Assembly (NCBI GenBank): GCA_031763025.1
Contig: JASSKH010000017.1
Location: forward strand, 6,729,361 to 6,793,360
Direction: 5' to 3'
DNA length: 64,000 nucleotides
Origin: Macrocystis pyrifera
Lineage: Eukaryota; Sar; Phaeophyceae; Laminariales; Laminariaceae
Below, piece after piece: positions 2,427 to 62,845 of the stretch (its first letter is position 1; every line of letters begins with the position of its first letter). Below the pieces are notes generated by a model. That model was not told where the DNA came from, did not search any database, and worked only from the letters and a program-made list of their open reading frames with translations. The position numbers and the translations under genes were made by a program.

Positions 2427-2705
2427 TCATCTCTTTACCCTTCTGCTCGTCCTGGCGCCGGGCTTTTCCCGGCTTGGGGACGAATACCGCCTCTGGCGCG
2501 GCGGCGAGCGCACGAAAGAGTCCCTCTCGCCCCCGGTGCTGCTGTCAGCCGCGGTGGAGACGTCGTTTCCATAGGAATCAGCTGCGCTTGCGATTGGCCG
2601 CGCGGGCCGGGGGCTGCGAGATCGGGGAGGAGTTCTCTCGCGGACCTCATGCCCGACAAATTGCAGGAATTCACGATAGGATATGTTATTGTCCCCCCCA
2701 GTGTC
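2427..2705 (-). CDS. Exon 35: last EF-hand half and C-terminal Arg/Ser/Pro tail
   Basis: The acceptor CTTGTCAATTTCACAG/GAC is in phase 0. It reads DTGGDNNISYREFLQFVGHE, completing the loop opened by L-L-D-Y-L in exon 34, then a tail RERTPPRSRSPRPARPIA rich in Arg/Ser/Pro and a stop codon at 2427-2429. A donor AGG/GTAAAG at 2439 is an alternative, but no further EF-hand exon is visible to the left, so this is probably the C-terminus. The acceptor's C-rich tract comes from a LINE 3' end inserted at 2710-2897. Confidence 0.83.
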   Translation of the reverse strand, partial: DTGGDNNISYREFLQFVGHEVRERTPPRSRSPRPARPIASAADSYGNDVSTAADSSTGGERDSFVRSPPRQRRYSSPSREKPGARTSRRVKR

Positions 2706-2709
2706 CTGT

Positions 2710-2897
2710 GAAATTGACAAGAGGGGTGGGCGACGGGTGGCGGTGGGGGAGAGAGGGGGCGAGCGGGGGAGGGCGTACTCATTTTGCTGCCTGCCTTGGC
2801 CATTTCACCATTGACCATGCATCCCTTTCGAGAGGGAGCACCGCTCCTACTCCTAACAGAGACACCTCCAACATCAGGGCGCGTACTACGTTAGGGA
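2710..2897 (-). mobile_element. LINE 3' end fragment
   Basis: The body at 2776-2897 matches the LINE 3' UTR (GCATCCC, GAGAGGGAGCACCGCTCC, three-base variants throughout). In transcript sense the tail at 2775-2710 is C-rich but interrupted, indicating age. It supplies the pyrimidine tract for exon 35. Confidence 0.72.
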
Positions 2898-3727
2898 TCT
2901 TTAATCGTAAGTTCGAATTCGGCGCGCGGTTGTTATGGTCAGGGCCCATGGTAGACCAGAAGCTTTCGTAGACTCTGAGTATCAACTTCGGTCAGATAGA
3001 GAAGCTTCCAGTCAAAAGAAAGCGAAGACTAGATGATTTACCCCAAACGGTGCAGGTGGTGTTTTCTATTTCGTATGCCAGGTAGAAACAAGTAACTAAT
3101 CGGACAGAATCATGATCTATCTATTTACAGTAGAGGATCTACTGAAGATCCTAACGTGCCGTTGTTTTCCTTTTTCTTTTTCTTTTTTTCGAGTGCACCT
3201 ATAGTACCATGGATACGTTTCCTGATGTTATTCGGTTGCAAGTGATACGGGATGGTATACCGCGGTTCGTTAGTACCGTTTCCCTTCGCGGACTGGTATG
3301 ATACGATACCGCCGTGTGCACTATGTCGTGCTTGTTTGTTTTCTCCCGTCTAGATGCACTTTAGTTATTACAGCCTGTTTTGTGACCACAGGCAGGAGTT
3401 CAGGGAAGTGAGCTGATGAGAGAACATCATCATCGTCCTTCGCATGCGATGCCGTGCAGAATCTGAATGGTACGGTAGGTCCAATCCAGGAACATACGTC
3501 CTATGGATCACGCAGAGCGCACGGACCCTACCCGGCCACATGAGCTACGTATATCATACACATCGGGAATATATCTGCCCTGGAAGGCCTACTACTAGGG
3601 TAGACCGTGATCGTTATGTGGAAATCGATATTCTGCCCGATGTGTGAAATAAGTCGATGCAAAAATAATTATGCCGCGTTTCGTGGTTCGATTTTTACAG
3701 GCACCCCCCACCCACCCACCCCCTTAC

Positions 3728-3904
3728 CAAATAGTCCAGTAGGGCCTCGCATTCGGGTTCCGTCAGACGGAGGCCCAATCCTTCCAGGAGACACCGCCGG
3801 AAAGCGAGGGAAGGGAGTGTCCCCGATCGCCGGCGATCGGCGGCTTCGAAAACCTGGCGAAAAGGCGGCGGCCCGTCCTCTTCTTCCGTCAACCTACCGA
3901 TTTC
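3728..3904 (-). CDS. Exon 34: EF-hand exon
   Basis: 59 codons, phase 0 to 0; acceptor TGGTGCATGCAG/GAA, donor GACTATTTG/GTAAGG. It reads EIGRLTEEEDGPPPFRQVF, then EAADRRRSGTLPSLAFRRC and GLGLRLTEPECEALLDYL. The loop is A-D-R-R-R-S-G-T-L. The conserved G-L-x-L-T-E-x-E linker between paired EF-hands is clear. Confidence 0.87.
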
Positions 3905-4156
3905 CTGCATGCACCAGTCGCGCGGGTGCATGGGCGTAGTTTTTTTTTTAATGTGTTTATTCATCCTCGGGAGGATGGGTTTTTATTTTTCATTTATTTT
4001 TTCTCACCACACACATGGGCGTCCAGTAACAAAATCAAATATACTGTAGTGTCGGGAGTACGTTGTGCGTGCATGGAGCTCGGCACCTGGAGTTGGGGGG
4101 GAGGGGAATGTGAAATTGTGAGATCATCTCGAACGCCCGCCGAAAAAAAACATTTA

Positions 4157-4261
4157 TTACGGGGGTCCATATTAAGTAGGACCTACGGTACTCACAAAAT
4201 CCTATATATTTCGCGATTGTTACCAACAATATTTGGTCCTATTTACTATGGTCCCCCGTAA
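4157..4261. mobile_element. MITE (TTACGGGGG termini, TA target)
   Basis: A 105-bp element with long near-perfect terminal inverted repeats (TTACGGGGGTCCATA... and ...CTATGGTCCCCCGTAA) flanked by TA on both sides. No coding capacity. Confidence 0.85.
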
Positions 4262-4738
4262 TAGTTGAGCGAAACGTGGGTGCCTCTACGATACAGTCAG
4301 TACCTTAATGATGCGTTTCTTACTGGCAGATGCGCGACGTAATGGTGGTGTGCGGACAACAAGCGAAGGTTACTCAAGAGCTTTTTATCTTCCAGCCGGG
4401 CGGTTTTTTCCATGACAGCACAGCGGAGTGGCGACGGTCCGCAATGCCGTAAAAACACACACCACACCCTTGAAAGCGATCAAACCCTCGCAAACACACC
4501 AAGTGAACGTGTGGAATAGGCGCAAAACATAAGCAGCAGGCAGGTAACCACCACCAACCTCATCATCTTGCCACAGCAGACGTATGCGTGACCCCTATGT
4601 ATGCCAGAGCGGCTTGGGTTACGAACCCCGCTTTCTTTATTTCTTTTACTTCTGATGCTACAGCAGCAGCAGTAAGACCAAGTCGCCCCCCCCCCCCCCC
4701 CCCCCCACCCCCCCCCTCCCAATTTTTGGACGACTCAC

Positions 4739-4942
4739 TTCCTTAAGCGTGTCCACGAGACGCTCGATGTCGTCCGCGCTTGAACGGCGGCGAGCCCCGC
4801 TTCTCTCCCCCTTTCGCCTGCCTCCCCCCTTCCCACCCTCCACGGTCCATTCGGCTTTCCTTCTGCCACCTCCCCGCGAGGATGAGCGCTCCGCCATTGC
4901 CTCGACAAAGTCCTTGTATCGGACATACCCGTGCCTTCTTCC
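4739..4942 (-). CDS. Exon 33: EF-hand exit helix and basic linker
   Basis: 68 codons, phase 0 to 0; acceptor TTCTACACGCGAAG/GGA, donor AAGGAA/GTGAGT. It starts GRRHGYVRYKDFVEAMAER, close in sequence to NGHIRYKDFLRDL of exon 23, then a Gly/Arg/Lys-rich linker and ADDIERLVDTLKE. Poly-C runs lie on both sides in transcript sense: one begins 37 nt upstream of the acceptor, the other about 20 nt after the donor. Confidence 0.84.
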
Positions 4943-5712
4943 CTTCGCGTGTAGAAGTTTGGAGAGGATCCGTTGAGCGGGGGGGGGGGGGGGGGGGGGG
5001 GGGGCGAGGGGGGGGAGGGGAGGATACGGCAGGACCGAGGTTTTTTAAAGGAGTTTTTTTTTGTTGTTTCATTTTAGGGCTCCAAATTTCTTCGTATTGA
5101 TTTATTTCATTCTAAGCTGCCAATGTTTCAATTTTCTCCATTTACTGGATGGAGTTGTTTTTAACAGCAGGCCCGAGGGAGCAAGGTTGGAAGATGAGAA
5201 ATTGGGAAGCTGGGAAAATGGGGAAATTGCAGTAAAAAAACAAATCAGTGAGAGTGCAGGTACGTAAAACATGTATGTATTGACATTTGGTGGTCGAGTA
5301 GACTAGGTGCTTATCATCGAGGCAACGGCGCAGTTTTTTTTTTCGCAACTCCAAAAGGCGACAGGCTTTTCTCTCGAGCTAATCTCTTCACCCCTTGTTT
5401 TTTTCACTTTTTTTAAGCACGCACGCTTCTGTGGAATAGTTAGCCACAACAAACCATATACCGATACCGACTAAACGTATCTGCTCGTTGACACGCACAC
5501 CCGGTGATTTGCGATGTGAAGCGCTTCATTCAGCGTTGATGCGCGCATGCTTCTCTGAGTTAAGACTACACCAAACAAATATCTGTGCGAACTATACGCA
5601 GCTGCTCGCTGGTGCGCACACCAGCTCCGCAACACGACGCGCTTTGTTGGAAATGACTTAGGGGATGTTATTTAGAAGTGCTCAACAAAAATCACGATTT
5701 TTTTTTACTCGC

Positions 5713-5814
5713 CTTGAATAAATCGACGATACGCGAGGCGTGCGAACGAGGCAAGTCGCGACCGAGTCCAAGACTCTGCAATCCTTCCCAGAATTCCGCT
5801 TCGGAGACCTCGCC
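5713..5814 (-). CDS. Exon 32: EF-hand exon with a GC donor
   Basis: 34 codons, phase 0 to 0; acceptor CCAACCATTGAACAG/GGC. It reads GEVSEAEFWEGLQSLGLG, then DLPRSHASRIVDLFK. The best donor is AAG/GCGAGT, giving a GC-AG intron: with it, F-K joins GRRHGYVRYKDF of exon 33, and the Gly falls six residues after Phe as in exons 22/23. The nearest GT donor (4 nt further) gives a phase no exon 33 acceptor can match. Confidence 0.74.
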
Positions 5815-6336
5815 CTGTTCAATGGTTGGTTGACAAATCGCCATGGCGACACCGGCAGCAGAGAGTCACCCCCACGGTAGGGGTTGCACTTTTTTGGCGA
5901 AAGGTTTCTGACCAATTGAGTTCCTTAAGTGAGGAACTAGCAGTTTCAGTAGGAAGAACAAAATTGCTTGTATATTCGTTTTAGGACTAGCGCATAACAA
6001 GTGCCGGTCGGATGGCCCGAACGAATTTCTTCCAAATATTGTATCGGGTGAGATAATGAGTTCCTAATGTGAGGGACTCAGGAACGTCGGGTGCATCCCT
6101 ACCGTGGGATGGCTCCAGAGTGGGTAGACTTGCGTGGTTATATGCATTCGGTCAGCGCTATCCAGGAAGCCTACGTTAGCTATTAATAGTAGATTGTTCC
6201 TTAAAATCTTCAAGAGTACGCAATGGCCTACAGAGTACTTGATTATATTTTACAAAGCTCATGTTTGCCGCTCTGATCGGTATATCCGTCCGCACGTAGA
6301 TAACAATCATGGCGGCGGACACGAAAATAAACCTTA

Positions 6337-6441
6337 ATACGGGGGTCCATAGTTAATGGGACCAAATTTTGTTAGTAAAAATAGGTAAATGTATAGGTTT
6401 TTATGTACACCATAGGTCCTATTAACTATGGACCTCCGTAA
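6337..6441. mobile_element. MITE copy
   Basis: Termini AATACGGGGGTCCATAGTT and CTATGGACCTCCGTAA; internal TTTGTTAGTAAAAATAGG block present. Confidence 0.85.
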
Positions 6442-6828
6442 TAGTGCAGCGATGCTTTTAACGCTGTAAGAAGTCGTAGTGGTAGTATTAATAATAGTAG
6501 TAATAGTAGTAGCAGCAAAGGTAGTGGTAAAAGTAGTAGTAAGGGTATTCGTAGTACAGCAGCAGTAGCAGTAGCAGTAGTAGTACCTGTCCGCGCCGGT
6601 CGAAGTGTTCGAACGACTCCAACAAGCCAACGCCCCCCTCGCTCTCGGCAGCGGCAACAAGAAGTTGCAGCTCGTCCAGAACCGTTTCAGCTGTTTCTGG
6701 TGCCGCTTCAACGCTCGACTCGTCGTAAGATTCGTCCTTCAATATCGGGAACCGAGGAATGCGCCCGAGAGAGGGTAAGATGAGAGGGGGGAGGGGTATA
6801 TTCATGTCATGCATGGCCGTCGGGCGGG

Positions 6829-9496: not shown

Positions 9497-9601
9497 TTAC
9501 GGGGGTCCATAGTAAATAGGACCAAATATTGTTAGTAAAAATAGGTAAAGATATAGGTTTTTACGTATACCATAGGTCCTATTAACTATGGACCCCCGTA
9601 A
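9497..9601. mobile_element. MITE copy
   Basis: Both termini intact, flanked by TA on each side; internal AAATATTGTTAGTAAAAATA present. Confidence 0.87.
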
Positions 9602-9753
9602 TAGTACACGGTCCCGTTTTGGGGACAAAACATCTAAACTATAAGTAGTTTTGTCCGCAAAACGGAGCTGCATTTATTTCGAAAAGGGTTTAGACCTCTT
9701 GGGAAGTCGGTATTTCAGGGAGATACGGGTACACAGGGCCGGCACTCGCGCTA

Positions 9754-11644: not shown

Positions 11645-11830
11645 CTCGCCCTCCGAGCTTAACCCCGCGGCCACCATTCCACGGTAAAGTGAGCGCCTGA
11701 CGTCGGACATGCGCATCCTCCCGCGACGCTCGGGGTCGATAGAGTCGCACAGGACGAGAACCTCCGCCTCTCGGAGCGTCGAAACCCCCTGTCGCTCAAG
11801 CGCCTTGCGTAGGTCTCTGCGGCTGATCTC
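11645..11830 (-). CDS. Exon 31: EF-hand exon
   Basis: 62 codons, phase 0 to 0; acceptor CGCTTTCGACACAG/GAG, donor GGCGAG/GTACG. It reads EISRRDLRKALERQGVSTL, then VLVLCDSIDPERRGRMRMS and DVRRSLYRGMVAAGLSS. The loop D-P-E-R-R-G-R-M-R lacks most calcium ligands. The next exon is 5.8 kb away, the longest intron, filled with LINE, RepA and MITE copies. An extra exon could be missing there, since the loop after SSEGE is atypical. Confidence 0.82.
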
Positions 11831-14763: not shown

Positions 14764-14955
14764 CTGGCGGCCATCGACGAATTGGCTGAGATCAGACATG
14801 AAGGCGCGAACGAGAATGAGCCCGCCTTTGTCGCCGCTCCTTCGGCAATCACGCCCGCTCGACCGGCGAGCGCCCTGCTGCATGTCTGCCACCTCAACCG
14901 ACACTCGCTCCCAGACGTCCGCTTCCACCTCCCCGGCCACGTAGTTGACAAAGCC
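14764..14955 (-). CDS. Exon 30: EF-hand exon
   Basis: 64 codons, phase 0 to 0; acceptor TTGGATCTCCGACAG/GGC, donor CGCCAG/GTGGGG. It starts GFVNYVAGEVEADVWERV, completing the loop D-R-R-G-T-G-D-V-D-V-E from exon 29, then a long helix, a Gly/Arg turn, and LILVRAFMSDLSQFVDGRQ. A MITE (15054) lies about 100 bp upstream. Confidence 0.85.
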
Positions 14956-16961: not shown

Positions 16962-17711
16962 CTCCACATCAACGTCTCCAGTTCCCCGTCGATCAAAGCG
17001 CCTGCCAAGATCGTTCAGCAGCTTGGAAGTCAACGGCGCTCCGCACGCGGTCATAGCTCGTCGGACGGTCTCTAAGTCCACGTGCCGCTGGCCCCTTCTC
17101 GCCCCCCGCGCATCAGCAGCGATCTGCAGAGCGCCGCGCAGTTTGTCGCGAAGCCCGGGACCAACCGAGTTACCCGCTTCTCCTTCTCCTCCTGCTCCTC
17201 CTGTTAAAGCCGCCGCTGTCGGATGATCTGCGGAGTCGGGAGTAGAAGAAACTAGGCGGCGAAGGCTACTGCGCAACGTTTCAGGCGCACGATAAGACCA
17301 CGATTCACCGTCGTCGTCCCCGCTGTTTTCTCCCTCAAGGAAGGTAACCCCTTTCGTTGTGCGGCGGCTGGTGGCGGTGCGGGAAGGGGAAGCTCCTCTC
17401 GTTGTCGTCGTTGGCGTCTCGAGAAGGAGGGAGTTCGAAGAAGATGCTCGTCCTTTTTCCCAGGTGGGGTTGCTGCGTCTGCGTCCCCCCCCTCTTTCAG
17501 GCGAGGAAGTGGCGAGGCGGGGTCGGGAAAGAGAGCCGTTGAGTATGCGCGAGAACTGTCGAAAGTTGAGTCGCCGTGCGCGGGAGGCTGAGCCTCTCGT
17601 GCGCGAACCACCACCACCATCCGCGATGGAATCGGTCAGAAGGCGGCTTTCTCGCCTGGTCAAATTCACGCCGAGAGAGTCAAGGCCTTCGCAAAGGTCC
17701 ACGTCGCTCAC
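16962..17711 (-). CDS. Exon 29: longest exon, three EF-hand-like segments and a Ser/Arg/Thr-rich linker
   Basis: 250 codons, phase 0 to 0; acceptor TTCTAATAAAG/GTG, donor GTGGAG/GTAAGG. It starts VSDVDLCEGLDSLGVNLTRR, then ESRLLTDSIADGGGG and LNFRQFSRILNGSLS. About 130 residues of Ser/Arg/Thr-rich disordered sequence follow, with short phospho-site-like RRTTKG stretches. It ends HVDLETVRRAMTACG and NDLGRRFDRRGTGDVDVE. This exon is open over 750 nt without error, unlike those with frameshifts. Confidence 0.92.
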
Positions 17712-17993: not shown

Positions 17994-18242
17994 CTCGCCA
18001 AGGCCGTCCGGATCAAGGTACTCGAACAGACGTCGAGGTGACATTTCTTTCGCAGTGCCAAGCTTCAGCGCCGAGCGGAGTTTCCAACGCGCATCTCCGA
18101 GGGCATCATTGTCCATGCCGTCATCATCATCATCTGATTCTTGGTCGTCGAAATCCCCTCGTGTGACCCTCCGGGTACCGGCGGCGCGGTCGATACCGCC
18201 AGACACGAATGCCAACACCCTCTCAATGCTCGCGGTACCGTC
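17994..18242 (-). CDS. Exon 28: EF-hand exon with acidic linker
   Basis: 83 codons, phase 0 to 0; acceptor CTCTCGTATGTCAAG/GAC, donor GGCGAG/GTAAGG. It begins DGTASIERVLAFVSGGID, completing the loop opened by L-D-V-H-E in exon 27. A linker with a DDDDDG run follows, then WKLRSALKLGTAKEMSPRR and LFEYLDPDGLGE, half of the next loop. Confidence 0.87.
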
Positions 18243-19363: not shown

Positions 19364-19532
19364 CTCGTGAACGTCTAAGCGATGCATCAGACGACCCAAG
19401 TCTGCGCCAGCGAAGTCCGCGCCGAATTTGGTCAAGACTTTCGCGAGCGCCTGTTGGGATATCATCCCTGAAGCGGACGGATCCTTACGCTCCAGGTCTT
19501 CTTGGAGGTGCGATAGAGTTGCCCTGTCCATC
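19364..19532 (-). CDS. Exon 27: EF-hand exon
   Basis: 169 nt, phase 2 to 0; acceptor CCTCCCCGTACAG/G, donor CACGAG/GTGATC. It reads QMDRATLSHLQEDLERKD, then PSASGMISQQALAKVLTKFG and GADLGRLMHRLDVHE. The polypyrimidine tract of the acceptor is the C-rich tail of a RepA insertion: the element's conserved GAGTAC end sits 17-22 nt upstream of the exon. Confidence 0.88.
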
Positions 19533-20500: not shown

Positions 20501-20594
20501 TGTCGAAGAATCTTGTCCCGTACATCGCCATGGTTTGGGTCTCTGGCGAACACAACAAGATCGGGATATACCAAGAATCCCGCGCCGTCCAGAT
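20501..20594 (-). CDS. Exon 26: second half of an EF loop plus helix
   Basis: 94 nt, phase 1 to 2; acceptor TTTTTTTGTTCGCAG/AT, donor CGACA/GTGAGC. The codon split with exon 25 gives Asp, so the loop reads D-L-D-G-A-G-F-L-V-Y-P-D, nearly canonical, followed by LVVFARDPNHGDVRDKILR. The exact fit of a loop residue across a 1.6-kb intron is strong support for both exons. Confidence 0.88.
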
Positions 20595-22237: not shown

Positions 22238-22361
22238 CTATCGCCTTAAACAACGTCCGCTCTTGCTGTGTAGTCAGCTCCAAGCCCAACCGGTGTAAGC
22301 CGTCGGACATATCGTTCTCCGACACTTTGCCCTTGCGACGGGCATCGAAGTGGCGGAACGC
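22238..22361 (-). CDS. Exon 25: EF-hand exon whose 3' end seeds a minisatellite
   Basis: 124 nt, phase 0 to 1; acceptor GGGATCAACAG/GCG, donor GCGATAG/GTGACG. It reads AFRHFDARRKGKVSENDMS, then DGLHRLGLELTTQQERTL and FKAI. The loop is D-A-R-R-K-G-K-V-S-E-N-D. The last ~25 nt and the donor with its flank recur in degenerate form in the tandem array directly downstream (21.5-22.24 kb). Confidence 0.86.
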
Positions 22362-24953: not shown

Positions 24954-25193
24954 CTCTTCATTCCCGTCGCCTGAAGGGCGACGGCGCGGCGTGCCCCAAT
25001 GCAGTAGCTCCACGAACCGTACGCCTGCTTCTTCGCCGCTCGTTTCACTCCTCCACCCTCGGCGATGAGCCATAGTAGCGCCGCCAGCGTTTGCACCACC
25101 ACCTCGGGTAGGAGCCGCTGCGAAACGTCTCTCTAATCTCTTCAGCTCTTCTTCGGGAAATCGGCCTTGAGCAGCTCCATAACCGCGCGGAAA
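24954..25193 (-). CDS. Exon 24: EF-hand exon with a 1-nt frameshift
   Basis: The acceptor TTCACACGGCAG/T lies 18 nt downstream of a poly-C run; the donor is GAAGAG/GTTTGT. The 240-nt length is one short of phase 2 to 0. The first frame reads SFRAVMELLKADFP and then stops. From the same point another frame reads FPEEELKRLERRFAAAP and later VRFVELLHWGTP, a normal EF-hand continuation. One extra base in the TTTCCC run near 25155-25160 joins them and restores both phases. Confidence 0.72.
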
Positions 25194-26781: not shown

Positions 26782-27048
26782 CTCTGCCGGGACACGATGC
26801 CTGCCTCCACCTTCCCGCCCGCCCTCCCATCCTCGAGTTCCATCTCGCGGCGGTAGTCCAACCCGCGGTCAATTGCTCTGATCAGCGTGACCTCCAAGCG
26901 CTCTCTTTCGGTAGCTCCTCCTCCTCCTCTGCCGCCGCGCTCGCTGCCACCGACCGTCGGCCATCGTCGCTCGCGAGGAACATGGATGTGCCGTTCTTCG
27001 TCCTCTTGGAGATCACGCAAGAAGTCTTTGTATCGGATGTGCCCGTTC
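26782..27048 (-). CDS. Exon 23: EF-hand exon
   Basis: 267 nt, phase 2 to 2; acceptor ATTTCTCTCAG/G, donor CAGAG/GTAAAT. Joined to exon 22 it gives F-D-P-N-R, then NGHIRYKDFLRDLQEDEE, a complete EF loop split by the intron. An Arg/Gly-rich linker follows, then LEVTLIRAIDRGLDYRREME and LEDGRAGGKVEAGIVSRQ. Confidence 0.88.
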
Positions 27049-27792: not shown

Positions 27793-28051
27793 CTGTTAGG
27801 ATCGAAGTGGTCCAGTATCTCGGCTGCCTCTTCGTCGTCTCCGAGGCGATCGAAGCCCAGTTCTCTCAAAGCGCGACGGAAATCTCGCCGAGAAAGACGG
27901 CCGCTCCCATCCCGATCCAGCGACTCGAACGCTCGTAGGGCAGCCGACCGTCTCTCGCCGCCGCCGCTGCCGCCATCGTGGTGGCTGTTCGTGCGACGTA
28001 CGAGCCTGCCCAGTTCGGCCCTGATGTTTCGGAGGATATCCTCGGGGCGTC
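27793..28051 (-). CDS. Exon 22: EF-hand pair, best canonical loop
   Basis: 259 nt, phase 1 to 2; acceptor CGTCAACATTAG/GA, donor AACAG/GTAATA. It reads RPEDILRNIRAELGRLV, a His/Gly linker, then ALRAFESLDRDGSGRLSRR and DFRRALRELGFDRLG, ending EAAEILDHFDPN. The loop D-R-D-G-S-G-R-L-S-R-R-D is near canonical (position 12 is Asp, not Glu), making it the most likely true calcium site. A RepA C-rich tail lies about 30 nt upstream of the acceptor. Confidence 0.92.
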
Positions 28052-30723: not shown

Positions 30724-30892
30724 CTGATTTTGGGTTTCCGCTGCCTCCGGTGATGCTCTGAAGCAGGCGTGGGTACAGGAAGGATGGTGCACCCTCCTCG
30801 TCCCCTTCGTCCGAACCGCCTCGGGTCGAGAATCTGCGCATGAGACCTGCGATATCTCTCGCCGTCACGGGTAAGCTTAGGGCCGCCAGCAC
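30724..30892 (-). CDS. Exon 21: EF-hand-like exon with acidic loop insert
   Basis: 169 nt, phase 0 to 1; acceptor TTTTTTCATAG/GTG, donor AAATCAG/GTGTG. It reads VLAALSLPVTARDIAGLMRR, then FSTRGGSDEGDEEGAPS and FLYPRLLQSITGGSG. The loop is expanded by an acidic Gly-rich insert, and the F-L-Y-P-R-L-L pattern corresponds to V-x-Y-x-x-F of other repeats. Confidence 0.82.
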
Positions 30893-32317: not shown

Positions 32318-32734
32318 CTCGACTAGCGCCTCTTGGCGCACCCAGCCCCGCCTGCCGCCGGGGTCCATGGCCTCAAACTCCTCCCACGCCCTGGAAATAC
32401 CGTCATCCCCCATCCTTTGGAGCGCAGTGCGGACCTTCAGCTCGGCCTCGTCCTCCCCGATCCCATCCTCCGCGCTCCCTCCCCCCCGCCCACGCCTGCG
32501 GTCTCTCGCGTTCATTCCCCCCGCCCCTCCGTGTCGCTCCTGATCTCGCCCCAATTCTGACGTGGAAAATGCCCCTCCCCCTCCTCTTCCTCGTTCTTGG
32601 TGGGATGCAGCCACGGCGGTGCTACGTTGCCCTCCAGAGGCGGCGAGGCCGTCGGGCCCCGGCGTGGCCCACGAGAGGAACTTGGGATACGATACGGTGT
32701 GCCCATCACCGAATACTCCTGCTAGGAAGGCCGC
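32318..32734 (-). CDS. Exon 20: EF-hand pair with Gly/Arg-rich linker
   Basis: 139 codons, phase 0 to 0; acceptor CACATACCTCAAG/GCG chosen over a nearer CAG because only it keeps phase 0. It starts AAFLAGVFGDGHTVSYPKFL (exiting loop and helix), then a 90-residue Gly/Arg-rich linker, then VRTALQRMGDDGISRAWEEF and EAMDPGGRRGWVRQEALVE. The donor is GTCGAG/GTGAGG. The plus strand of this GC-rich exon is also open but shows no motif. Confidence 0.8.
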
Positions 32735-34482: not shown

Positions 34483-34614
34483 CTGCGCTCGAGTGAACGG
34501 GAAACCGCAGCGAATGGTAGCCCGAACGAATTCGGCTGTACCTACGCGCCCGTTTCCCGTCCAGTCGTAGCGAAGGTACGGGTGATCAAACGCATCGAAA
34601 TCACTATCCATCCG
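34483..34614 (-). CDS. Exon 19: EF-hand exon
   Basis: 44 codons, phase 0 to 0; acceptor preceded by a strong C/T tract (CTTTTCCATGAAG/CGG), donor GCGCAG/GTGAG. It reads RMDSDFDAFDHPYLRYDW, then TGNGRVGTAEFVRATIRC: helix, loop D-W-T-G-N-G-R-V-G, helix. Introns on both sides are packed with tandem arrays: (CCCAT)n at 34.19-34.46 kb begins about 20 bp after the donor, and a TGATA-type array lies upstream at 34.79-35.09 kb. Confidence 0.83.
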
Positions 34615-36121: not shown

Positions 36122-36353
36122 CTGAGCGGCCTCCACGACAGTCGCCTGCGCGCGTCGAAGCAGCTTCCCAACCCCGGCTTCATCTTGCATTGTCAACGCC
36201 GCCTGCTGAGCCGCGTAGGCGTTCATGTGGTGGCCGTCGCCATCATCATCATCCACGGGGCCTTCGACGAACCCCACCAAGTCATGGCAGCTTACCCCCG
36301 CGCCAGTAGGGTCCAGCCTCTTGTATAAGGCACTTGTGTCGTCTTCCGTGAAG
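36122..36353 (-). CDS. Exon 18: EF-hand exon with Asp-rich insert
   Basis: 232 nt, phase 2 to 0; acceptor CCTTCGAAATCACAG/C, donor GCTCAG/GTGCGG. The split codon gives Ser. It then reads FTEDDTSALYKRLDPTGAG and VSCHDLVGFVEG, with a loop L-D-P-T-G-A-G-V-S. A DDDDGDGHH insert follows, then helices DEAGVGKLLRRAQATVVEA. The S-F-T-E-D-D-T start after E-L-G-L in exon 17 is the usual link between paired EF-hands. Confidence 0.85.
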
Positions 36354-36803: not shown

Positions 36804-37084
36804 GACAAGCCAAGCTCTCGCAGAGCTTCTTCAAGCTGAGGTTGACGCAGGACCCGCCCACCACCGCCGCCACCACCGCCGCCGCCATCCCTGACAGAAA
36901 AAACTTCCAGTGCAGCGCGTAGATCGATTCCTTCACTGTTCCGCAAAGCTACAAGGTGGTTTCGTAGCCGTGACACCGCAGACGCCGCTCGCAAGGCGGC
37001 TGGCTGCTCCGACGAGAAGGCTACGAGCGAGGCGTAGTCGACCATGTCTTCGGCCTCCTCGAACATGGTCGCCAGATGTCGCAA
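36804..37084 (-). CDS. Exon 17: EF-hand pair with a poly-glycine loop
   Basis: 281 nt, phase 0 to 2; acceptor TGACTGCTTTCAG/TTG, donor TTGTC/GTGAGT. It begins LRHLATMFEEAEDMVDYASL, an EF-hand whose loop is reduced to E-E-A-E-D-M-V. Later it reads ALEVFSVRDGGGGGGG...RVLRQPQLEEALRELG, an EF-hand whose loop carries ten consecutive glycines. Gly codons are mixed GGC/GGT, so the run is not a simple repeat artefact. Confidence 0.86.
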
Positions 37085-38797: not shown

Positions 38798-38996
38798 CTG
38801 CTTCGGTGGCGTTCCTGACACGCCAAGCTCTCTCAACCCGTCGAACAGGTCGACCCGGCACACGAAGCCGGTCCCTAAGGGGTCCCGCCGCGCGAAGACG
38901 TCGAGGGCGCCGGGACGCAGCGGCTTGGTCCTCAACAGATTCACGGTGGGGGCCACGTCGGGCGGCCGCCGGTTTTCGCAGAATATCGCGAAGGCT
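38798..38996 (-). CDS. Exon 16: EF-hand exon
   Basis: 199 nt, phase 2 to 0; acceptor TCATGTTCCACAG/A, donor AAGCAG/GTGAG. The split Arg codon completes RAFAIFCENRRPPD, the exiting helix from exon 15. It then reads ALDVFARRDPLGTGFVCRV and DLFDGLRELGVSGTPPKQ, a full EF-hand with a degenerate loop (R-D-P-L-G-T-G-F-V). A (CAC)n tract follows in the intron at 38722-38762. Confidence 0.86.
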
Positions 38997-39741: not shown

Positions 39742-40019
39742 CTATAATCGATCCGGCCGCTTCCTCTTCTTCCCTCGCTCCCGCGTTGTTGTTTTCCCTT
39801 TCCCCCTTCCGTTTTGTCGTCCGTATCGAAAGCATCCATAGCGGCTAGGAGTAAAGGCGGGGGGAGCTCCAGGGACGGTCGCAAGCCCCGCATCGCGAGG
39901 GCGAAGCGCTGGCGGTCGAGGAAACCGGTGGAGTCCTTGTCGAGCTTGGCGAGGGCTGCGCAAGTGTCCGGCGGCGAGCTCGTCCCTTCAAACTTTGCCA
40001 AAGCAGAGTCGATGAAATC
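39742..40019 (-). CDS. Exon 15: EF-hand with near-canonical loop
   Basis: 278 nt, phase 0 to 2; acceptor ATGCGTCAG/GAT, donor TATAG/GTGTG. It reads DFIDSALAKFEG, then CAALAKLDKDSTGFLDRQ and MRGLRPSLELPPPLLLAAMD, then AFDTDDKT, a basic insert and GSGRIDY. The first loop D-K-D-S-T-G-F-L-D is one of the few with Asp at positions 1 and 3, Thr at 5 and Asp at 9. Position 12 is Arg instead of Glu, so calcium affinity is doubtful. Confidence 0.84.
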
Positions 40020-41079: not shown

Positions 41080-41392
<313 letters not shown>

Positions 41393-41844
41393 TTATCTCG
41401 CGTGTTATGGTATACGGTACTTCGTCCGGATGTTTTCACTTCTTGGAACCATCCTTTTCGACGAGTTTCTGCTATTTATACCGAAGTGTCCAGCGGTATA
41501 TAGCACACGCCGACAATAATACCGGTATATGCGCCACGACATACATTGTTCGCTGTTCTGCAATCTTGACGCAGTCATTTGTTTGCCCGCTCATGCAAAT
41601 CGTTTTGTTTTTGCTCCTAAATTCCTTGTTTTAGGGCCCTACAAATAAACTCCCTCATGCCGACACAGCACACACCCATTCAATCCACGAACTTCCCCGC
41701 ACGCAATGCCGTACTGCTGCATCGCACCTCAAGGTCGAGTACTGAGCACTTCGCATCCATACCGCTCCTGCCCGCAGCAGGACGCGTCGTATGAAGGTGC
41801 CTCTCGTCCTCCTCCTGCTCTTCATGAGAAGACGTTCCGGATAC

Positions 41845-42121
41845 CACACTTCCCAGGCCGCCATATTTGCGCAGACGATAGCCACGGTATCTCGATTGCA
41901 AGAGGCGCGCCGCGGCGTCGTGTCCGAGCTCGCTCGTGGACCTCGCGCGAGCGTAGCTGTCGCGGGCGACAGCGGCCGAGGGGTGGCGCGGCCCCGCGTC
42001 GCCACCACCGTCATCTTCGAGCTTCGCCAAACGGGGCTCAACTCCTCCGCCTGGGAGGACTCCTCCTCCTTCCTCGTCATGTCCTCCGCCGCCGCTTTGA
42101 GAAGGGCGGTGGCTTCCGTTT
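41845..42121 (-). CDS. Exon 14: coiled coil plus IQ motif, with a 1-nt frameshift
   Basis: 277 nt, phase 1 to 0; strong acceptor TCTCTGTTCCTAG/AA, donor GTG/GTATCC. The first frame reads ETEATALLKAAAEDMTRKEE, a charged coil. The second frame reads ARLLQSRYRGYRLRKYGG, an IQ-type calmodulin-binding helix (x-L-Q-x-x-x-R-G-x-x-x-R-K). The frames differ by one missing base near the GGAGGAG run around 42050-42070. With it, both borders fit phase 1 and 0. IQ motifs bind calmodulin or EF-hand light chains, so an intramolecular contact with the EF-hand array is conceivable. Confidence 0.66.
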
Positions 42122-43748
42122 CTAGGAACAGAGAGGGATGATAACTCTACCTTGTCCACCTTCAAAGGGCAAGCAAAACGCAACCAAACCCCACACGAAA
42201 TTTCAATGCGATTGATGAAGAAGCGACGCAAATAACAACTTTTGTTAAAAAAAAAAACAACGTTGGAAAGCTGCTGCTCAACGTAGGATATGTATCAGTA
42301 CTTTCGGAGTATGCACGCAAAAGGGATGAACAAGTGTTTCCGGTTATATGCTACTGAAGTGTTGGTACGAAAGGGCCTGTCAACGTTGTCCCACAACACA
42401 AGAGTTACTTCCTTTTCTCAGGGAGGTGATACATGCCAATCTGGACGGAAGTATAAGGGACGTTTAGGCATCAACATCAAAGACTAAACGATACTATATA
42501 TTTCCATCCAGAGCGGTACGCTTCCGGCACACATGCCCACCCACTACGAAGGGCTTGTTCGATGTTAAACGTTTGTCACAGAACAAAGTATATCAGTTTA
42601 ATATAATGCAAGAGGGGCTTCGCCGCGGAGGACTGACGCCCGCCTCGGCTCTGCGTATGCCCGTGACGACCGAGGATGTAGAAAAAATGAGGCCGTAAAT
42701 GCGACAGTACTGCCAAGGGGTACATCGAAATTAAAAAATGTTTTGAGTGAAGGGAAAGAAAACACTGGAATCTGATTCAATGAACCAGCAACAAATAAAT
42801 GTTGTCGTCCGGCACACTCTCTGTCACCTGGCACAATGTGTAAATCAATATAAGAAGTAGTACGTCGAACACAGAGTAGGCCACGAAGTGCGCGAAAAGC
42901 CGACAGAAAGGAAAATATTATTAGGGATCGGGAACCGATATGATAATAATCTGCAGTTTGTTGTTGTAGAGATAATTAGGCATTATGGTTCATATTCTTA
43001 AACGGTCCGAATATTGCCATCAAGCATCGCTCTCATCTGGTTATTGTGCCGTCTTCCCTCTTGGGCCTACTTCGAGGTGCCGCTGTTTCCTACTGGTTCT
43101 TGTTCGTACAACAGCAGCAACATTACTAACCATCATTAACAATATGGTAACTTGTACGTCTGTATACCTACATGATACTTGCTTGTATGATACCATAAAA
43201 CGTGTCACAACAGCGTTGTTGTCAACAACAAACAGCAGCAGCATATAAAATACACCGTGATATGATAAAATACATCGTGCGAGGATAGTACACATCGGGT
43301 TAGGGTTTCGACCGATTCTATAAAGGGTTCATATATAACATATATAGTGGAATAGCACACACACCGTGCGAGAGCGATGTAGAGCATCGCAAGCAACAGG
43401 GTCTGCGGAATAGGCTTAACTGCGTCGGCATCGACCATCCCATACCCCTTGCTGCTACGAAAACTAGATGCATGGCCGATCCCTCATTGGGGCGGAGAGG
43501 CCCCTTGTAATCCCTACTATGTATTTAGCTCGCTCGCCTTTTCGGCCGCGGCTCTCTCGATCTCCTTGACCTTCTCCTGGAACGCGTTCCTTCTCGCTTC
43601 GTCATGCCCCCCCCCCTCGACTCGGCGCAGGCGCACCTCCTCTCCATCGTACGCCGGGTTATCCTCCAGCATACCCCCCAAAATGCACCTCACATCGGCC
43701 GCCGCTCCCCGCCCCCCTCTTCCGACGTGCTCCACGGCGCGGTGTTAC

Positions 43749-44299
43749 CATTAGCAAGCGCTCCTTGTTCCTCGTTGCCCCTGCCCTCCGGCGCTGATTC
43801 ATCAACCAGTGCAAACCCCATCTCCCGCAAACCGCGCTTGAACGTCGGCCGAGAGACTCGCCCCCCGCCCTCGGGGTCCAGCCTAGAAAACGCCTCCCCT
43901 GGGAAAGAACGTCCCAAAAGCCCAGCATCGCGGCACTTGACCCGCGCTTTCACAATCGCTCGTCGAGCGGCTGCACCTCCGTCGCCAGGTCTCGTTGCGC
44001 CCATCCAGTTAGCCCAATCACCACCCCCGCCACCGCCACCGCCACCACCCCCCCCCCTCCTCCTGCTGCGTCTCCGATGTGAGGGCCGCTGTAGGTTGCA
44101 AAGGCAGCTAGGTGTTCGAGGGTAAGCATGCGGTGGTTCGTGCTGTCACCGCTGCCGCTGCCGCTGCCGCCGCTGCCAGCACCTCCGGCCGCGTGCGCGT
44201 AGGCCGCAGCGAGCTCGTCTGGAGACGCGCTGAGCTTGCCCGAGGACAGCAGAGTCGAAACGAACGTCTCCTCCGAGATATGAATCTTTGGATTTGATC
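43749..44299 (-). CDS. Exon 13: EF-hand pair with Gly/Ser linkers, frame broken at a poly-G tract
   Basis: 551 nt, phase 1 to 1. The start is G/GA after AAAAAAG, a weak acceptor. Frame one reads KIHISEETFVSTLLSSGKL, a Gly/Ser linker, then MLTLEHLAAFATYSGPHIG. After a run of ten G at 44050-44059 the signal moves to another frame: AFSRLDPEGGGRVSRPTFKR and GLREMGFALVDE, a clear EF-hand. One added base would join them. Alternatively an intron of about 100 nt starts at the G run and ends at GTCAAG/TGC. The donor is AATG/GTAACA. A coiled-coil-like frame further on (43735-43520) is taken as intronic. Confidence 0.66.
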
Positions 44300-47088: not shown

Positions 47089-47236
47089 CTGCCACACCGA
47101 GAACGGCTGCGAGAGCTTCCGTCGGAGACAATCCGTCTTGCTCTGCGGCCTCCGACAGGAAGCTGTGGATCTGACCGAGCGCCGCCAGAACGGCCGGTGG
47201 CGGGTCGCTCTCCCGCAGAAAGGCGACGTAGTTCAC
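47089..47236 (-). CDS. Exon 11: exiting EF-hand helix and next helix pair
   Basis: 148 nt, phase 0 to 1; acceptor TACTTGGCAG/GTG, donor GTGGCAG/GTACG. It starts VNYVAFLRESDPPPA, the second half of the EF loop opened in exon 10 (V-x-Y-x-x-F signature), and continues with helices including LSPTEALAAVLGVA. The intron cuts the EF loop just before the hydrophobic residue at loop position 8, a placement repeated across the gene. Confidence 0.82.
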
Positions 47237-48953: not shown

Positions 48954-49184
48954 CTGTCCATCTTTTTCCGGCGAGAAACGCGCCATGAGTCCCTCCACCT
49001 CCTCGGCTGAGAGCCCGTGGGGCCCGGGGTCCCCTCCCGTCCGAAGGGGTTTCAACCACCGCGCGGAAACGGATATCTGACCCGCAGACCTCCCTGTGGC
49101 GTCCTCGACAGGGGCCCACTCGGCGACTACGGGTCGCCCTTCGGCAAGGGGCGACAAGTCAATTATCGCCTCGCCGATTAAGCC
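48954..49184 (-). CDS. Exon 10: end of second C2 fused to first EF-hand helix
   Basis: 77 codons, phase 0 to 0; acceptor CCGCAAG/GGC, donor GGACAG/GTACG. The first part, GLIGEAIIDLSPLAEGR...ISVSARW, is the closing C2 strand pair (family I-G-K-x-x-V-P-L-x-x-L, ending G-x-I-x-V-x-x-x-W). The same uninterrupted frame then reads LSAEEVEGLMARFSPEKDG, an EF-hand entering helix and half a loop. This exon is the physical evidence that C2 and EF-hand parts belong to one protein. Its acceptor lies about 33 nt downstream of a RepA poly-C tail. Confidence 0.86.
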
Positions 49185-50453: not shown

Positions 50454-50577
50454 CTCGGATTCATCATTGCCTGACGCATTTTCGGACGGCCACGCCTCGT
50501 CGTCGGCGCTCTTCTCATCTGCATTACCTCCGCTGTTATTGGCGAGGTCGTCCATGATCGTGACTGTGAGGTGGTGC
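50454..50577 (-). CDS. Exon 9: second C2 domain, strand plus acidic loop
   Basis: 124 nt, phase 2 to 0; acceptor TTTCTTGCAG/GC, donor TCCGAG/GTGAG. The split codon gives Arg, then HHLTVTIMDDLANNSGG, which fits the L-S-F-Y-V-F-D-D-S-D strand and loop of RPGRIP1L. A long acidic low-complexity loop (about 30 residues, Asp/Glu/Asn/Ser-rich) follows and is longer than in animal homologues. A (CAT)n array begins about 20 bp upstream in transcript sense. Confidence 0.8.
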
Positions 50578-52218: not shown

Positions 52219-52337
52219 CTCGACAGGAAACGGAGGAGCTTGTCGTCCGTGGCCACCGGAAAAGAGGTGGAGTGGCGGAAGAACGGATCGCGTGCGCCGT
52301 GCACGACGGGGGTAAACACGTCCTGGAAGCCCAGGAG
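52219..52337 (-). CDS. Exon 8: second C2 domain, central strands
   Basis: 119 nt, phase 0 to 2; acceptor GGCAAAAG/CTC, donor TCGAG/GTACG. It reads LLGFQDVFTPVVHGARDP and then FFRHSTSFPVATDDKLLR, parallel to the RPGRIP1L second C2 (F-F-D-F-x-D-H-D-T-x-I-I-x-x-x-x-x-P-Q-F, then F-P-V-x-M-N-x-D-L-D-R-Y-L). The calcium-site aspartates of classical C2 domains are mostly absent, so it may not bind calcium. Confidence 0.82.
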
Positions 52338-53298: not shown

Positions 53299-53490
53299 CT
53301 GGTAGTGAACGTATGCGGCCGGCGCCGCGTCTCTGTCCGCCCGTCCTCGACCCGGGAGGCCGCGGCACCCGACGACCACTAGCTCTAGCTCGTTGTGGAG
53401 GCTCGACGTGTTACGCGTGACGCCCCCGTGCTGTAGTGCACCACTCCCTCCGTGCCGGCCGAGATCCGAGGCGGTCAGGTACCCTTGCGC
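53299..53490 (-). CDS. Exon 7: linker and start of second C2 domain
   Basis: 64 codons, phase 0 to 0; acceptor GTATGGTAG/GCG, donor TACCAG/GTTGTC. It reads AQGYLTASDLGRHGGSG, a linker, then SSLHNELELVVVGCRGL and PAAYVHYQ. The A-x-G-Y-x-T-S start and the N-E-L-x-x-x-x-x-x-C strand followed by a Y-V-x-Y strand are how RPGRIP1L enters its second C2. Open frames in the other two frames here are longer but lack homology. Confidence 0.82.
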
Positions 53491-54324: not shown

Positions 54325-54426
54325 CTTCGCCTCGAGCAGCCTGGCTTGCTCCACTCTCTCCTTCTCCTCAGGTCGTCGTTCGAGGAATAGGGCGTACAGC
54401 TCCATCACCGGAAGCGCCATGCGTAT
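54325..54426 (-). CDS. Exon 6: last strand of first C2 and following helix
   Basis: 34 codons, phase 0 to 0; acceptor CTTCTTTCAG/ATA, donor GCGAAG/GTATGC. The peptide begins IRMALPVMELYALFLERR and goes on with a charged helix. It matches the RPGRIP1L continuation after the C2 (I-R-L-R-V-P-M-x-x-A-I-x-L-Y-R-E-R). The match across the exon 5/6 border confirms the donor chosen for exon 5. Confidence 0.83.
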
Positions 54427-55782: not shown

Positions 55783-55992
55783 CTCTACGTGTACGTAGCC
55801 GACGACCGCTCCGTCCCTCGTCGAGATCAGGGGCTCCCGCTGCAAAACAATCCTCGGTTTAGAGGAGAGCAGACCGGACAGCGCGATCTGCCGCCTCCCG
55901 ACCAGCTCGAAGTCCGCCGCCCTGGCCTGGTTGAGCTCGATCACGAGACCCTCGGTGCCGAGATAGCGCAAGAAGAAGTCATCCACCGTCAC
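55783..55992 (-). CDS. Exon 5: first C2 domain, C-terminal half
   Basis: 70 codons, phase 0 to 0; acceptor CGCTCGCAG/GTG. It starts VTVDDFFLRYLGTEGLVIEL and continues NQARAADFELVGRRQIALS, as in the RPGRIP1L strand order (V-N-D-L-F-L-Q-Y-I, then L-E-V-H-Q-A). The donor GAG/GTGCGG at 55783 is preferred to read-through to a stop at 55756, because exon 6 then continues the conserved strand in phase. Degenerate AAGGCGAA repeats follow upstream at 56.08-56.45 kb. Confidence 0.86.
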
Positions 55993-57747: not shown

Positions 57748-57897
57748 CTTGAATGTGGTTGCGAAATCGAAGGCCGGCGACGTGCCCGGGAGAAGCGGGG
57801 TCGCCTGGCTCTCGAAGTCGAAGAAGTCGACCACGATGAAGCTCGAGGATCCAGCCGACAGCGATCCGGGCTCCAGCTCTGCCCCAACCACCCACAC
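57748..57897 (-). CDS. Exon 4: first C2 domain, N-terminal half
   Basis: 50 codons, phase 0 to 0; acceptor CCCAACAG/GTG, donor TTCAAG/GTGATG. The key stretch is FIVVDFFDFESQATPLLPG followed by SPAFDFATTFK. This is the hallmark of the RPGRIP1 first C2 domain (aromatic-DFE-x-Q-x-TP, then G-x-x-P-x-Y/F-x-F), which sets it apart from C2 domains in general. It is one of the two exons on which the family assignment rests. Confidence 0.88.
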
Positions 57898-60043: not shown

Positions 60044-60194
60044 CTCGACGATGTTCTGATCCGCGGAAAAATCTCCCTCAGCCAGCTCGCTAAGGAGTGC
60101 GCTCTCCTGCTCTTGCTCCATCGCTGCCGGCGAGGCGTCTGCCGCGGCTCCGAGGCGTTGCCGCCGGGCCGGGGCCGTACAAGAGCTGCTTTAC
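60044..60194 (-). CDS. Exon 3: junction between coiled coil and first C2 domain, with a 1-nt frameshift
   Basis: The acceptor is GACACAG/GTAAAG and the donor GTCGAG/GTATAC. The 151-nt length breaks the reading frame. The first frame reads VKQLLYGPGPAA, matching the family's K-D-x-A-Y-G segment after LEAQ. The last third reads ELAEGDFSADQNIVEV in another frame, matching the acidic stretch and first C2 beta-strand (family pattern EN-L-F-E-I-H). Removing one base in the C/G-rich run near 60155-60175 joins the frames and gives 150 nt in phase 0 to 0. The extra base may be a sequence error or a real lesion. Confidence 0.68.
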
Positions 60195-60645: not shown

Positions 60646-61138
60646 GCGCAGGGGGTGGGTGCGTTTGTCTATTGTAGATGTCCTGGCACTCGCACCTCAG
60701 CCTCCGGGTGGGCGCCCCACTATCACAGGTCGGCAAAGCTGCTACTACAGTAGCACCCACGTGCATCGCTTCCATTCATTACGGAGGGATAAGCCAACGA
60801 TGCAGACGGGAAAAGGGGTGCATTTTGCCTATTTTGTATATATATATATGTCCTGTCACGCTAGCTGTTACGTGGGGACCATAGCAATTACAATCAAATA
60901 TGGTGTGTAAACGTAGGGAGACACGTCGTTTCTAGGGTCCATCGTCGGTTCTGGTTGCTATATGCATGGCTCGCGAAGGGTATGGACCGGTGCGACCAAG
61001 GTTCTCTCGTTTGTTTTGTTTCTTTCACTCTCTTTGCTTCTTTTTTTTTTGGCCTCTGATGGCTTATTTTTATATTTTGTGTCTTTCAATTTGATAAGCG
61101 TCTTTCGTATATTCAAGTAGCCCCTCCCCCCATCCCCT

Positions 61139-61240
61139 CGGTGCTCCGTCTCGAAGCTCTGTCTCGAAAAGGATAAGCGTGGTCAATGGTCAAACGACCA
61201 AGGCGAGCAACAAATGAGCACGCCCCCCCCCCCCCCCCCC
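61139..61240 (+). mobile_element. LINE 3' end fragment with poly-C tail
   Basis: A short plus-oriented copy of the terminal ~85 nt of the LINE (GGTGCTCCGTCTCGAAG, then GTCAAACGACCAAGGCGAGC, then ATGAGCACG) followed by about 17 C. No complete target-site duplication was found. Confidence 0.7.
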
Positions 61241-61312
61241 GCCGCCACGAGTGGGTTGCAATTACTGTGCACCCCCGCAGTAGCCACTGCTATTAGTAAG
61301 CCAACCCTACTC

Positions 61313-61416
61313 TTACGGGGGACCATATTAAATAGGACCTGTGATACACACAAAAGCCGGTATATTAATCTTTTTTTACCAACACTATTTCGTCCTATTT
61401 ACTTTGCCCCCCGTAA
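61313..61416. mobile_element. MITE copy
   Basis: TTACGGGGGACCATATTAAA at the left, CTTTGCCCCCCGTAA at the right. Confidence 0.82.
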
Positions 61417-61531
61417 TACTGCCTTTAGTGCCTTCGCTCGTATGGAAGGACACTCTAACGATACGTAGCGTGGTGAAAGGGGTGTCTTTTTTCATTATCG
61501 TCTGTCTTGGATGGTCCTCTGTTCTTCATAC

Positions 61532-61678
61532 CTGAGCCTCCAGCCGGTGCACGGTGGCGAGGCGCTCGAGTGCGAGGGCTTCAAAGTCGTGCAGCTTCTG
61601 CCCGAGCTGTCCTCGATCCATGGTCGACTTCCGGCACGCCTCCTCGAGCTCGACGTGCAAGTCGCGGTTGATGCTCAT
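61532..61678 (-). CDS. Exon 2: coiled-coil segment ending in the LEAQ motif
   Basis: 49 codons, phase 0 to 0; acceptor TCTACATAG/ATG, donor GCTCAG/GTATGA. The peptide MSINRDLHVELEEACRKS..., rich in Glu/Leu/Arg, ends VHRLEAQ. Vertebrate RPGRIP1 and RPGRIP1L, as I recall them, also close their coiled coil with LEAQ followed by a short K-D-x-A-Y-G segment, and exon 3 supplies the counterpart. The intron to exon 3 holds a MITE (61313) and a LINE 3' end (61139). Confidence 0.78.
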
Positions 61679-62731
61679 CTATGTAGACACATTTTTAGGT
61701 GGGAGGGGCGGGTGACAGAATTATGATGGTCTATCGTAAAAGGTACGTTTCACAAGTATGCGATACAACCTGATACCAATGCGGTGCAACCTCAACCAAT
61801 GATATTCAACACATGTACATAATCTGTCACGGCGTAATGTCTGACAAGGGGGGAGGGTGCAACGATTCATTCTTGCTGGTTAGATGGCGTACGTATCGGT
61901 AGGACACATCTTCTTGTCCAACTCCATTTTAAAAAAACAGGATGTTGGGCAACTTGCGAGGAGGGAACTTTTGTTTTTCAAAAGTTTCGTTTTTGGTGAG
62001 AGAGCAGTCGCGACGTTCACTGTTCAGGCCAAGGCGGCAATATACACGCCAGAAGAGAGAGGTAAGATCGCACTCGCCAGCGAGCAACAATTCGAGTGTT
62101 ATCGTACATGCAACCATCGAGCACTACTATACGTATATTGGAACGCTCTTAATTGGAGTCACACAAATAAACTGCAAACAAGAGTTGCGTGGATTAAACG
62201 TGTGATGCTCATAGAAATGGCACTGTTTTTTCGATAGTTTTTTTTTTTGTAGAGACACCACCTCAGCTGTGTTATGAGATCGAGAATTTTTCGTCTAAAC
62301 TCATCTTCGCAGGCTCCATGTCGTCGAAGCTCATATTTCCAAGCTTCGGGCACGTACACTCCGATCGCGCATTGCCACATGGCGTTCTTTTTTAGCACTA
62401 CGAGCAGTACCGGACACCTAACAATAAACAGGAAAAAAAAACCCTGTCCAGGCCGGATTTCTTATTTGAGGACGGGTACGTTCTACACTAAAACTCAGTA
62501 TAATGGTTACCCGAAACTTCTTGTTTTCCCGTAAAGCTCAGCCTGGCTTTCTTAACCACTGATCGGTTTTTTCATCACGAGGGGACTAAAAAAGCCTCAA
62601 AACAGTCAGAAGCCACCATGAACCCCAAAACCAGGTATCCCTCTGTGGTTACGCACTCTGTTTGGTTCTGGTTACTATACTACTCCCCCGTGCTAAAGTA
62701 GTGCGTGTCCTGTGCTCTGCTGCGTGCGTAC

Positions 62732-62845
62732 CTGAGCCTTGAGCATGCGTTCCGCCCTTTCGAGCTCTCTGGTAAGGTTGAGGTTGGACACTTGCACTCG
62801 CTGCAGTTTCCGTCGAAGGGCGGGGACGTTGTCCATTTCTTCGTC
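62732..62845 (-). CDS. Exon 1 of window: coiled-coil segment of RPGRIP1L-like protein
   Basis: 38 codons, phase 0 to 0. The acceptor follows a T/G-rich tract (TGTGCGCAG) and the donor is CTCAG/GTACGC. The peptide begins DEEMDNVPALRRKLQRVQ and ends ERAERMLKAQ, with heptad-like Leu/Val spacing and many charged residues, as expected for the coiled coil in front of the C2 domains of RPGRIP1 proteins. It starts at a splice acceptor, so upstream exons lie beyond the right edge. I found none between here and 64000. Confidence 0.72.

Follow-up and report, generated by a model that had tools for sequence, protein, structure and literature searches.

A brown-alga RPGRIP1L with a predicted EF-hand array behind its C2 domains

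We analysed 64,000 nucleotides of the Macrocystis pyrifera genome (assembly GCA_031763025.1, contig JASSKH010000017.1, positions 6,729,361 to 6,793,360), here called the window, and all coordinates below follow its numbering. Its minus strand carries a gene whose predicted chain, about 2,620 residues in the window, runs from a putative coiled coil through two RPGRIP1L-type C2 domains, the second one weaker, into an array of EF-hands. Judged from its sequence, the gene is the RPGRIP1L of a brown alga, an identification carried by the matches of the first C2 domain and, with less force, by the coiled coil and the second C2 domain. The best explanation in our view, at a probability of about 0.62, is an RPGRIP1L in which a mainly structural EF-hand arm stands in place of the RPGR-binding tail.

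An initial annotation of the window stated that no protein with this architecture had been described. This does not hold, as EF-hands following the C2 domains have been published for the Paramecium RPGRIP1L and, in the available part of that paper, were termed Paramecium-specific (Gogendeau et al., 2020, PMC7093003). New here is the EF-tailed RPGRIP1L in a stramenopile, M. pyrifera; the architecture itself was known. A literature search returned no paper on RPGRIP1L together with brown algae, nor one together with stramenopiles and the transition zone. The available part of a Paramecium review mentions EF-hands for centrin alone, and in the text of a paper on flagellar genes in algae RPGRIP1, EF-hand and transition zone are all missing.

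RPGRIP1L domains and the EF-hand array

The first C2 domain matched the Pfam family PF11618 with 147.5 bits (E 3.3e-43, cut-off 29.2), and the single PDB match at E<=1 was 2yrb, 'Protein fantom' (E 7.6e-11). In the assembly PF11618 was found at two places, both of them exons of the kelp gene, with only the best candidates scored, here two. Alignment to a human RPGRIP1L sequence that was not taken from a database was colinear over 723 columns, with 25% identical residues (E 2e-44 against this one sequence), and extended from an upstream predicted exon (71939-71805) to human residue 916, just before the extra tail. The coiled-coil region is read from this colinearity; eight predicted upstream exons had been included in the query. 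These matches uphold the RPGRIP1L identity that had been proposed from motifs in the first ten exons.

The second C2 domain was scored in two versions and remained under the Pfam cut-offs in both, with E 0.0058 or 0.00029 for PF00168 (17.3 and 21.4 bits, cut-off 22) and E 0.00021 or 0.001 for PF11618. The C2 profile search suggested with the initial annotation was therefore positive for the first domain and below cut-off for the second. Among the Pfam matches at E<=1 of four protein chunks there was no RPGR-interacting C-terminal domain, and two protein pieces gave nothing at E<=1 in NCBIfam. Patterns of the first C2 matched 12 stretches in viral and 119 in bacterial or archaeal contigs, none of them a relative.

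The EF-hand array was confirmed to be beyond chance. It was divided into 17 segments, P00 to P16, which hold 28 hands in 14 pairs (P03-P16), one boundary hand (P00), one hand in P02 and three weak ones. Each segment was scored with a profile omitting that segment and compared with 500 of its own shuffles; the segments had been cut with a view to the EF pattern, and this is to their advantage in the test. In a first run 15 of the 17 segments were reached by none of the shuffles, P01 by 84 and P09 by 141. After exon correction P09 was reached by 0 of 500, P01 by 47, and the proposed second hand of P02, taken alone, by 189. This gives 16 of 17 segments beyond 500 shuffles, with P01 not significant; P02 is among the 16 owing to its first hand, the proposed second one being not significant. 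In each of the 14 complete pairs P03-P16, landmarks picked by hand in the two loops were 35-42 residues apart, and the first hands of neighbouring pairs followed each other at 84-206 residues. An alignment of 13 segments as pairs reads as a classical EF-hand pair. Shuffle test and loop spacing bear out the roughly thirty EF-hands of the initial annotation.

A first EF profile, biased by its minus-strand seeds, scored up to 38.1 bits on the minus strand and at most 8.5 on the plus strand. With Pfam alone, an EF-hand family was found at E<=1 in 9 of the 17 segments and above cut-off in just 2. In two more segments the sole matches, weak ones, were to families of unknown function, including DUF5580; this family was weakly matched by P07 (E 0.22) and P11 (E 0.0021). 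Exon 13 contains an IQ-like motif (E 0.0034, 17.5 bits), which is under its cut-off of 20.3.

Gene model and the exon 10-11 junction

Using a simple gene finder with manual joining we obtained 35 minus-strand exons in the window, from 62845 to the stop codon at 2427, with 10 exons up to the end of the second C2 domain and 25 from there to the stop. The coordinates, strand and 10 + 25 plan of the initial annotation were the same in this model. AG/GT splice sites and matching phases are imposed by the construction of the gene finder, and exons 7 and 32 have uncertain 3' ends; for exon 32 the donor, read by eye, is likely to be GC and not GT (CAAG/GCGAGT, 5700-5720). The exon at 62732..62845 had been taken as the first one. 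Predicted coiled-coil exons extend about 12 kb upstream of the window, to about 76 kb, and this exon is probably internal to the gene and not its start. The exons in the window are as follows, with (-) for the minus strand.

Exon 1, 62732..62845 (-): coiled coil DEEMDNVPALRRKLQ, probably internal; human alignment
Exon 2, 61532..61678 (-): coiled coil, ends HRLEAQ; human alignment
Exon 3, 60044..60194 (-): VKQLLYG ... NIVE; one-base frame break within about 60190-60133
Exon 4, 57748..57897 (-): first C2, DFFDFESQATP; PF11618 E 3.3e-43, match of the genome search
Exon 5, 55783..55992 (-): second half of first C2; PF11618
Exon 6, 54325..54426 (-): linker between the C2 domains; human alignment
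Exon 7, 53299..53490 (-): start of second C2, NELELVVVGCRGL...YVHYQ; alternative 3' boundary 53260; PF00168 E 0.0058 and PF11618 E 0.00021, below cut-offs
Exon 8, 52219..52322 (-): second C2; Pfam below cut-off, human alignment
Exon 9, 50454..50577 (-): second C2; Pfam below cut-off, human alignment
Exon 10, 48954..49184 (-): last part of second C2 (SARWLKPL), followed by the opening helix and half the loop of P00
Exon 11, 47089..47236 (-): other half of P00 (VNYVAFLRES), start of P01
Exon 12, 43637..44299 (-): remainder of P01 (weak, not significant) and P02; frame breaks near 44050 (G9) and near 43700
Exon 13, 41728..42159 (-): proposed end of P02 second hand (not significant), linker, IQ-like motif
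Exon 14, 39742..40019 (-): EF pair P03; Pfam scan and shuffle test
Exon 15, 38798..38996 (-): end of P03, first hand of P04; shuffle test
Exon 16, 36804..37084 (-): second hand of P04, first hand of P05; shuffle test
Exon 17, 36122..36353 (-): second hand of P05; shuffle test
Exon 18, 34483..34614 (-): first hand of P06; profile scan and shuffle test
Exon 19, 32318..32734 (-): second hand of P06, first hand of P07; shuffle test
Exon 20, 30724..30892 (-): second hand of P07; shuffle test
Exon 21, 27793..28051 (-): P08, its first hand (loop DRDGSGRLSRRD, canonical) and the start of its second; EF-hand_7 E 6.1e-14
Exon 22, 26782..27048 (-): remainder of second P08 loop DPNRNGHIRYKD (intron-split, canonical), start of P09
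Exon 23, 24954..25193 (-): remainder of P09; one-base frame break near 25163
Exon 24, 22238..22361 (-): first hand of P10; Pfam scan and shuffle test
Exon 25, 20501..20594 (-): second hand of P10; Pfam scan and shuffle test
Exon 26, 19364..19532 (-): P11; shuffle test; sole Pfam match DUF5580, E 0.0021
Exon 27, 17994..18242 (-): end of P11, first hand of P12; Pfam scan and shuffle test
Exon 28, 16962..17711 (-): remainder of P12, long linker, P13; Pfam scan and shuffle test
Exon 29, 14764..14955 (-): end of P13, start of P14; Pfam scan and shuffle test
Exon 30, 11645..11830 (-): P14; Pfam scan and shuffle test
Exon 31, 6587..6736 (-): start of P15; Pfam scan and shuffle test
Exon 32, 5707..5814 (-): middle of P15 GEVSEAEFWEGL; 3' boundary uncertain, possibly GC donor
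Exon 33, 4739..4942 (-): end of P15; Pfam scan and shuffle test
Exon 34, 3728..3904 (-): first hand of P16 and helix; EF-hand_7 E 3.5e-08
Exon 35, 2427..2705 (-): second hand of P16, low-complexity tail, stop codon

The reading frame is broken by one base at four sites in three of the 35 exons (once each in exons 3 and 23, twice in exon 12), all in or beside base runs: a C/G-rich stretch at about 60190-60133, a G9 run near 44050, a G-rich run near 43700, and near 25163. These breaks are what would speak for a decaying pseudogene, which we regard as very improbable. Besides their position in base runs, the five frame-consistent blocks comprise 2,625 codons with the last codon as the sole stop, and among the best candidates scored in the assembly no PF11618 gene other than the kelp gene turned up. 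The assembly comes from Canu with polishing by Racon, and the available part of its description names no Illumina polishing. We take the four breaks for assembly errors.

It was found that exon 10 contains the last strand of the C2 domain and also the beginning of the EF-hand P00, namely its first helix and half of its loop; the remainder of this hand is in exon 11. Since C2 strand and half-hand lie within one exon, the C2 domains and the array probably share one predicted chain. The joined exons 10 and 11 gave a crossing domain of 16.1 bits, as compared to best domains of 7.2 and -0.4 bits for the separate halves. When 1,793 possible phase-0 acceptors were tried, 143 gave crossing matches and exon 11 ranked 20th. 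These scores speak for half an EF-hand in the tail of exon 10 without singling out exon 11, which we chose as partner because of its nearness and the published domain order of Paramecium.

The alternative is a wrong join of an RPGRIP1L gene to a neighbouring gene for an EF array. The exon 10-11 join is a prediction and exon 11 holds only that 20th rank, which is what this alternative has in its favour. It has to contend with the hand divided between exons 10 and 11, with a donor at the end of exon 10 (ACAG/GTACGT), with the best 16 of the 143 crossing matches, every one of which falls within an array exon (the array had also trained the profile), and with the same domain order in Paramecium, and it seems to us highly improbable. 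Of the unbroken passage from C2 domain into EF-hands that had been proposed, the part within exon 10 stands, and the step to exon 11 is predicted.

Several pieces of the gene finder's output were set aside. Left out of the human alignment were seven upstream pieces at 83102-77467 and those at 75585, 74623, 73738, 73098, 67503 and 63602. Pieces dropped as phase fillers or repeats start at 63602, 61158, 46885, 45030, 43454, 32171, 25432, 20190, 19721, 19003, 12240, 10029, 9309, 7285, 1455 and 559. An additional small exon was considered in the gap from exon 11 to exon 12 and in that from exon 22 to exon 23, and was rejected in both cases, as the acceptors at 44299 and 25193, respectively, fit the phase. 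Downstream of the stop, at about -2385 to -8142, the gene finder gave more open stretches, perhaps of a neighbouring gene. Scans for Rfam families and tRNAs gave no match.

The window also contains repeats and base runs. A run of about 161 bases in intron 13 (41071-41231) is nearly all G (97% matches), and other long C or G runs are at 4686, 4979, 9997, 13844, 19164 and 28160. One dispersed family of about 200 bases (7963-8165, 28344-28546 and 49470-49672; inverted at 13632-13834 and 44930-45132) is present in introns in both orientations with arms 82-91% complementary, resembling a short element. A second has 14 copies of 112 bases with at least 62% identity (including 6335-6446, 9495-9606, 24509-24620 and 53925-54036) and partners on the opposite strand, possibly a small inverted-repeat element. 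A tandem duplication of 259 bases, 98% identical, lies in an intron at 10875-11392.

Structural arm or calcium sensor

The initial annotation had suggested that the array makes the ciliary gate calcium-responsive, and had also allowed that most of it may be structural. In the joined protein the canonical loop pattern fitted 2 of about 33 candidate loops, both in P08 and one of them split by an intron; in the raw six frames there was one fit. Near-canonical loops were read by eye in P06, P10, P12, P15 and P16. Canonical loops in most hands, as in calcium-sensor EF-hand proteins, were not found. Because so few loops are canonical we infer a structural arm, and a mostly structural array fits the sequence better than a calcium gate does.

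A real calcium sensor, which would make the gate or flagellar shedding calcium-responsive, is in our opinion unlikely. It would be in keeping with EF-hands on the same predicted chain as a transition-zone scaffold, with the two canonical loops of P08 and with the IQ motif, which might bind calmodulin or fold against the array; deciliation is triggered by calcium (PMC7093003), and EFCAB6, a protein with a comparable array, was itself suggested to act like calcium-binding proteins (PMC8595878). Against it are the approximately 31 of 33 loops that are non-canonical, and the Paramecium protein without EF-hands, which localizes like the full-length protein and restores deciliation; a role of the EF-hands in deciliation was tested and, in the available part of the paper, not found (PMC7093003). 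On these grounds the idea of a calcium-responsive gate is weak and goes unsupported.

We therefore return to the mainly structural arm. Behind the RPGRIP1L-type part, a coiled coil and the C2 domains, 14 to 16 EF-hand pairs would take the position of the vertebrate RPGR-binding domain. As in Paramecium, the RPGRIP1L-type part may direct the protein to the flagellar transition zone and bring in its MKS/NPHP partners. The array would be a mainly calcium-independent arm whose two-hand domains dock on partner proteins, a proposal drawn from the analogy of EFCAB6 and CFAP115, microtubule inner proteins that also carry EF-hand arrays. Ca2+ binding by P08, and perhaps by a few loops close to the canonical pattern, could tune the arm. 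Kelp flagella are confined to zoospores and sperm, and expression of the gene is therefore expected there.

When the EF-hand pair profile was searched against the PDB, five EFCAB6 sequences came first (E 1.3e-40 to 1.2e-35), followed by CFAP115 (3e-29) and then by calmodulin-related chains and radial spoke protein 7; long arrays have an advantage in these E-values, which are summed over repeats. EFCAB6 has a similar series of 14 EF stretches, several of them weak, and the kelp array likewise strings together degenerate EF-hand pairs over a length of more than 1,000 residues. These rankings, together with the spacing of first hands in P03-P16, would suit an EF part derived from an EFCAB6-like axonemal gene that fused to RPGRIP1L and still binds doublet microtubules, tying the transition zone to the doublets. 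We nevertheless find such a fusion improbable. The best single stretches in two EFCAB6 chains reached only 22.8 and 23.3 bits, and a single-sequence PDB search put radial spoke protein 7, calmodulins and centrins ahead of EFCAB6, which came 8th; moreover, Paramecium could carry an unrelated EF tail.

A number of points weigh against the structural-arm RPGRIP1L that we prefer. The single chain and its protein are predicted from genomic DNA, and the reading has to pass through the four frame breaks. The second C2 domain scores under the cut-offs, and the AlphaFold single-sequence model of one exon had a mean pLDDT of 56.3, giving nothing firm. The docking of EF pairs on partners is drawn purely by analogy; within that analogy the top rank of EFCAB6 is partly due to the sum over repeats, other EF-hand proteins lead the single-sequence search, and the role suggested by the EFCAB6 authors speaks for a sensor.

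The kelp EF tail points to an RPGRIP1L tail that is an old alternative in the SAR group and whose function is a general question. The RPGR-binding domain would then not be a fixed part of the RPGRIP1L transition-zone scaffold, and the calcium-gate guess becomes a testable choice between structural arm and sensor. A wider proposal, possible though doubtful, is that the EF-tailed form is ancestral in the whole SAR group, the array being a structural ruler related to EFCAB6 and CFAP115 that links the transition zone to the doublets, and the RPGR-binding tail of animals a later or alternative one.

Comparison with known systems

Calmodulin and centrin have four hands, mostly with canonical loops, and no array. 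With radial spoke protein 7, they share the EF-hand pair with the kelp protein and lead the single-sequence PDB search. To our knowledge EFCAB6 and CFAP115 have no C2 domains. Both resemble the kelp array as arrays of EF-hand pairs and are its best PDB profile matches, but they sit inside doublet microtubules: EFCAB6 at the inner junction of mammalian doublets (PMC8595878), and Tetrahymena CFAP115, with four EF-hand pairs, in a 32-nm repeat (PMC10105768).

Vertebrate RPGRIP1L (Protein fantom) has the first C2 domain in common with the kelp protein, is colinear with it over the putative coiled coil and the second C2 domain, as far as the alignment to the human sequence extends, and differs in the C-terminal RPGR-binding domain, where the kelp has the EF array. 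The Paramecium RPGRIP1L, likened here by its published architecture, has the same domain order as the kelp gene, and on the predicted kelp chain, too, the EF-hands come after the C2 domains.

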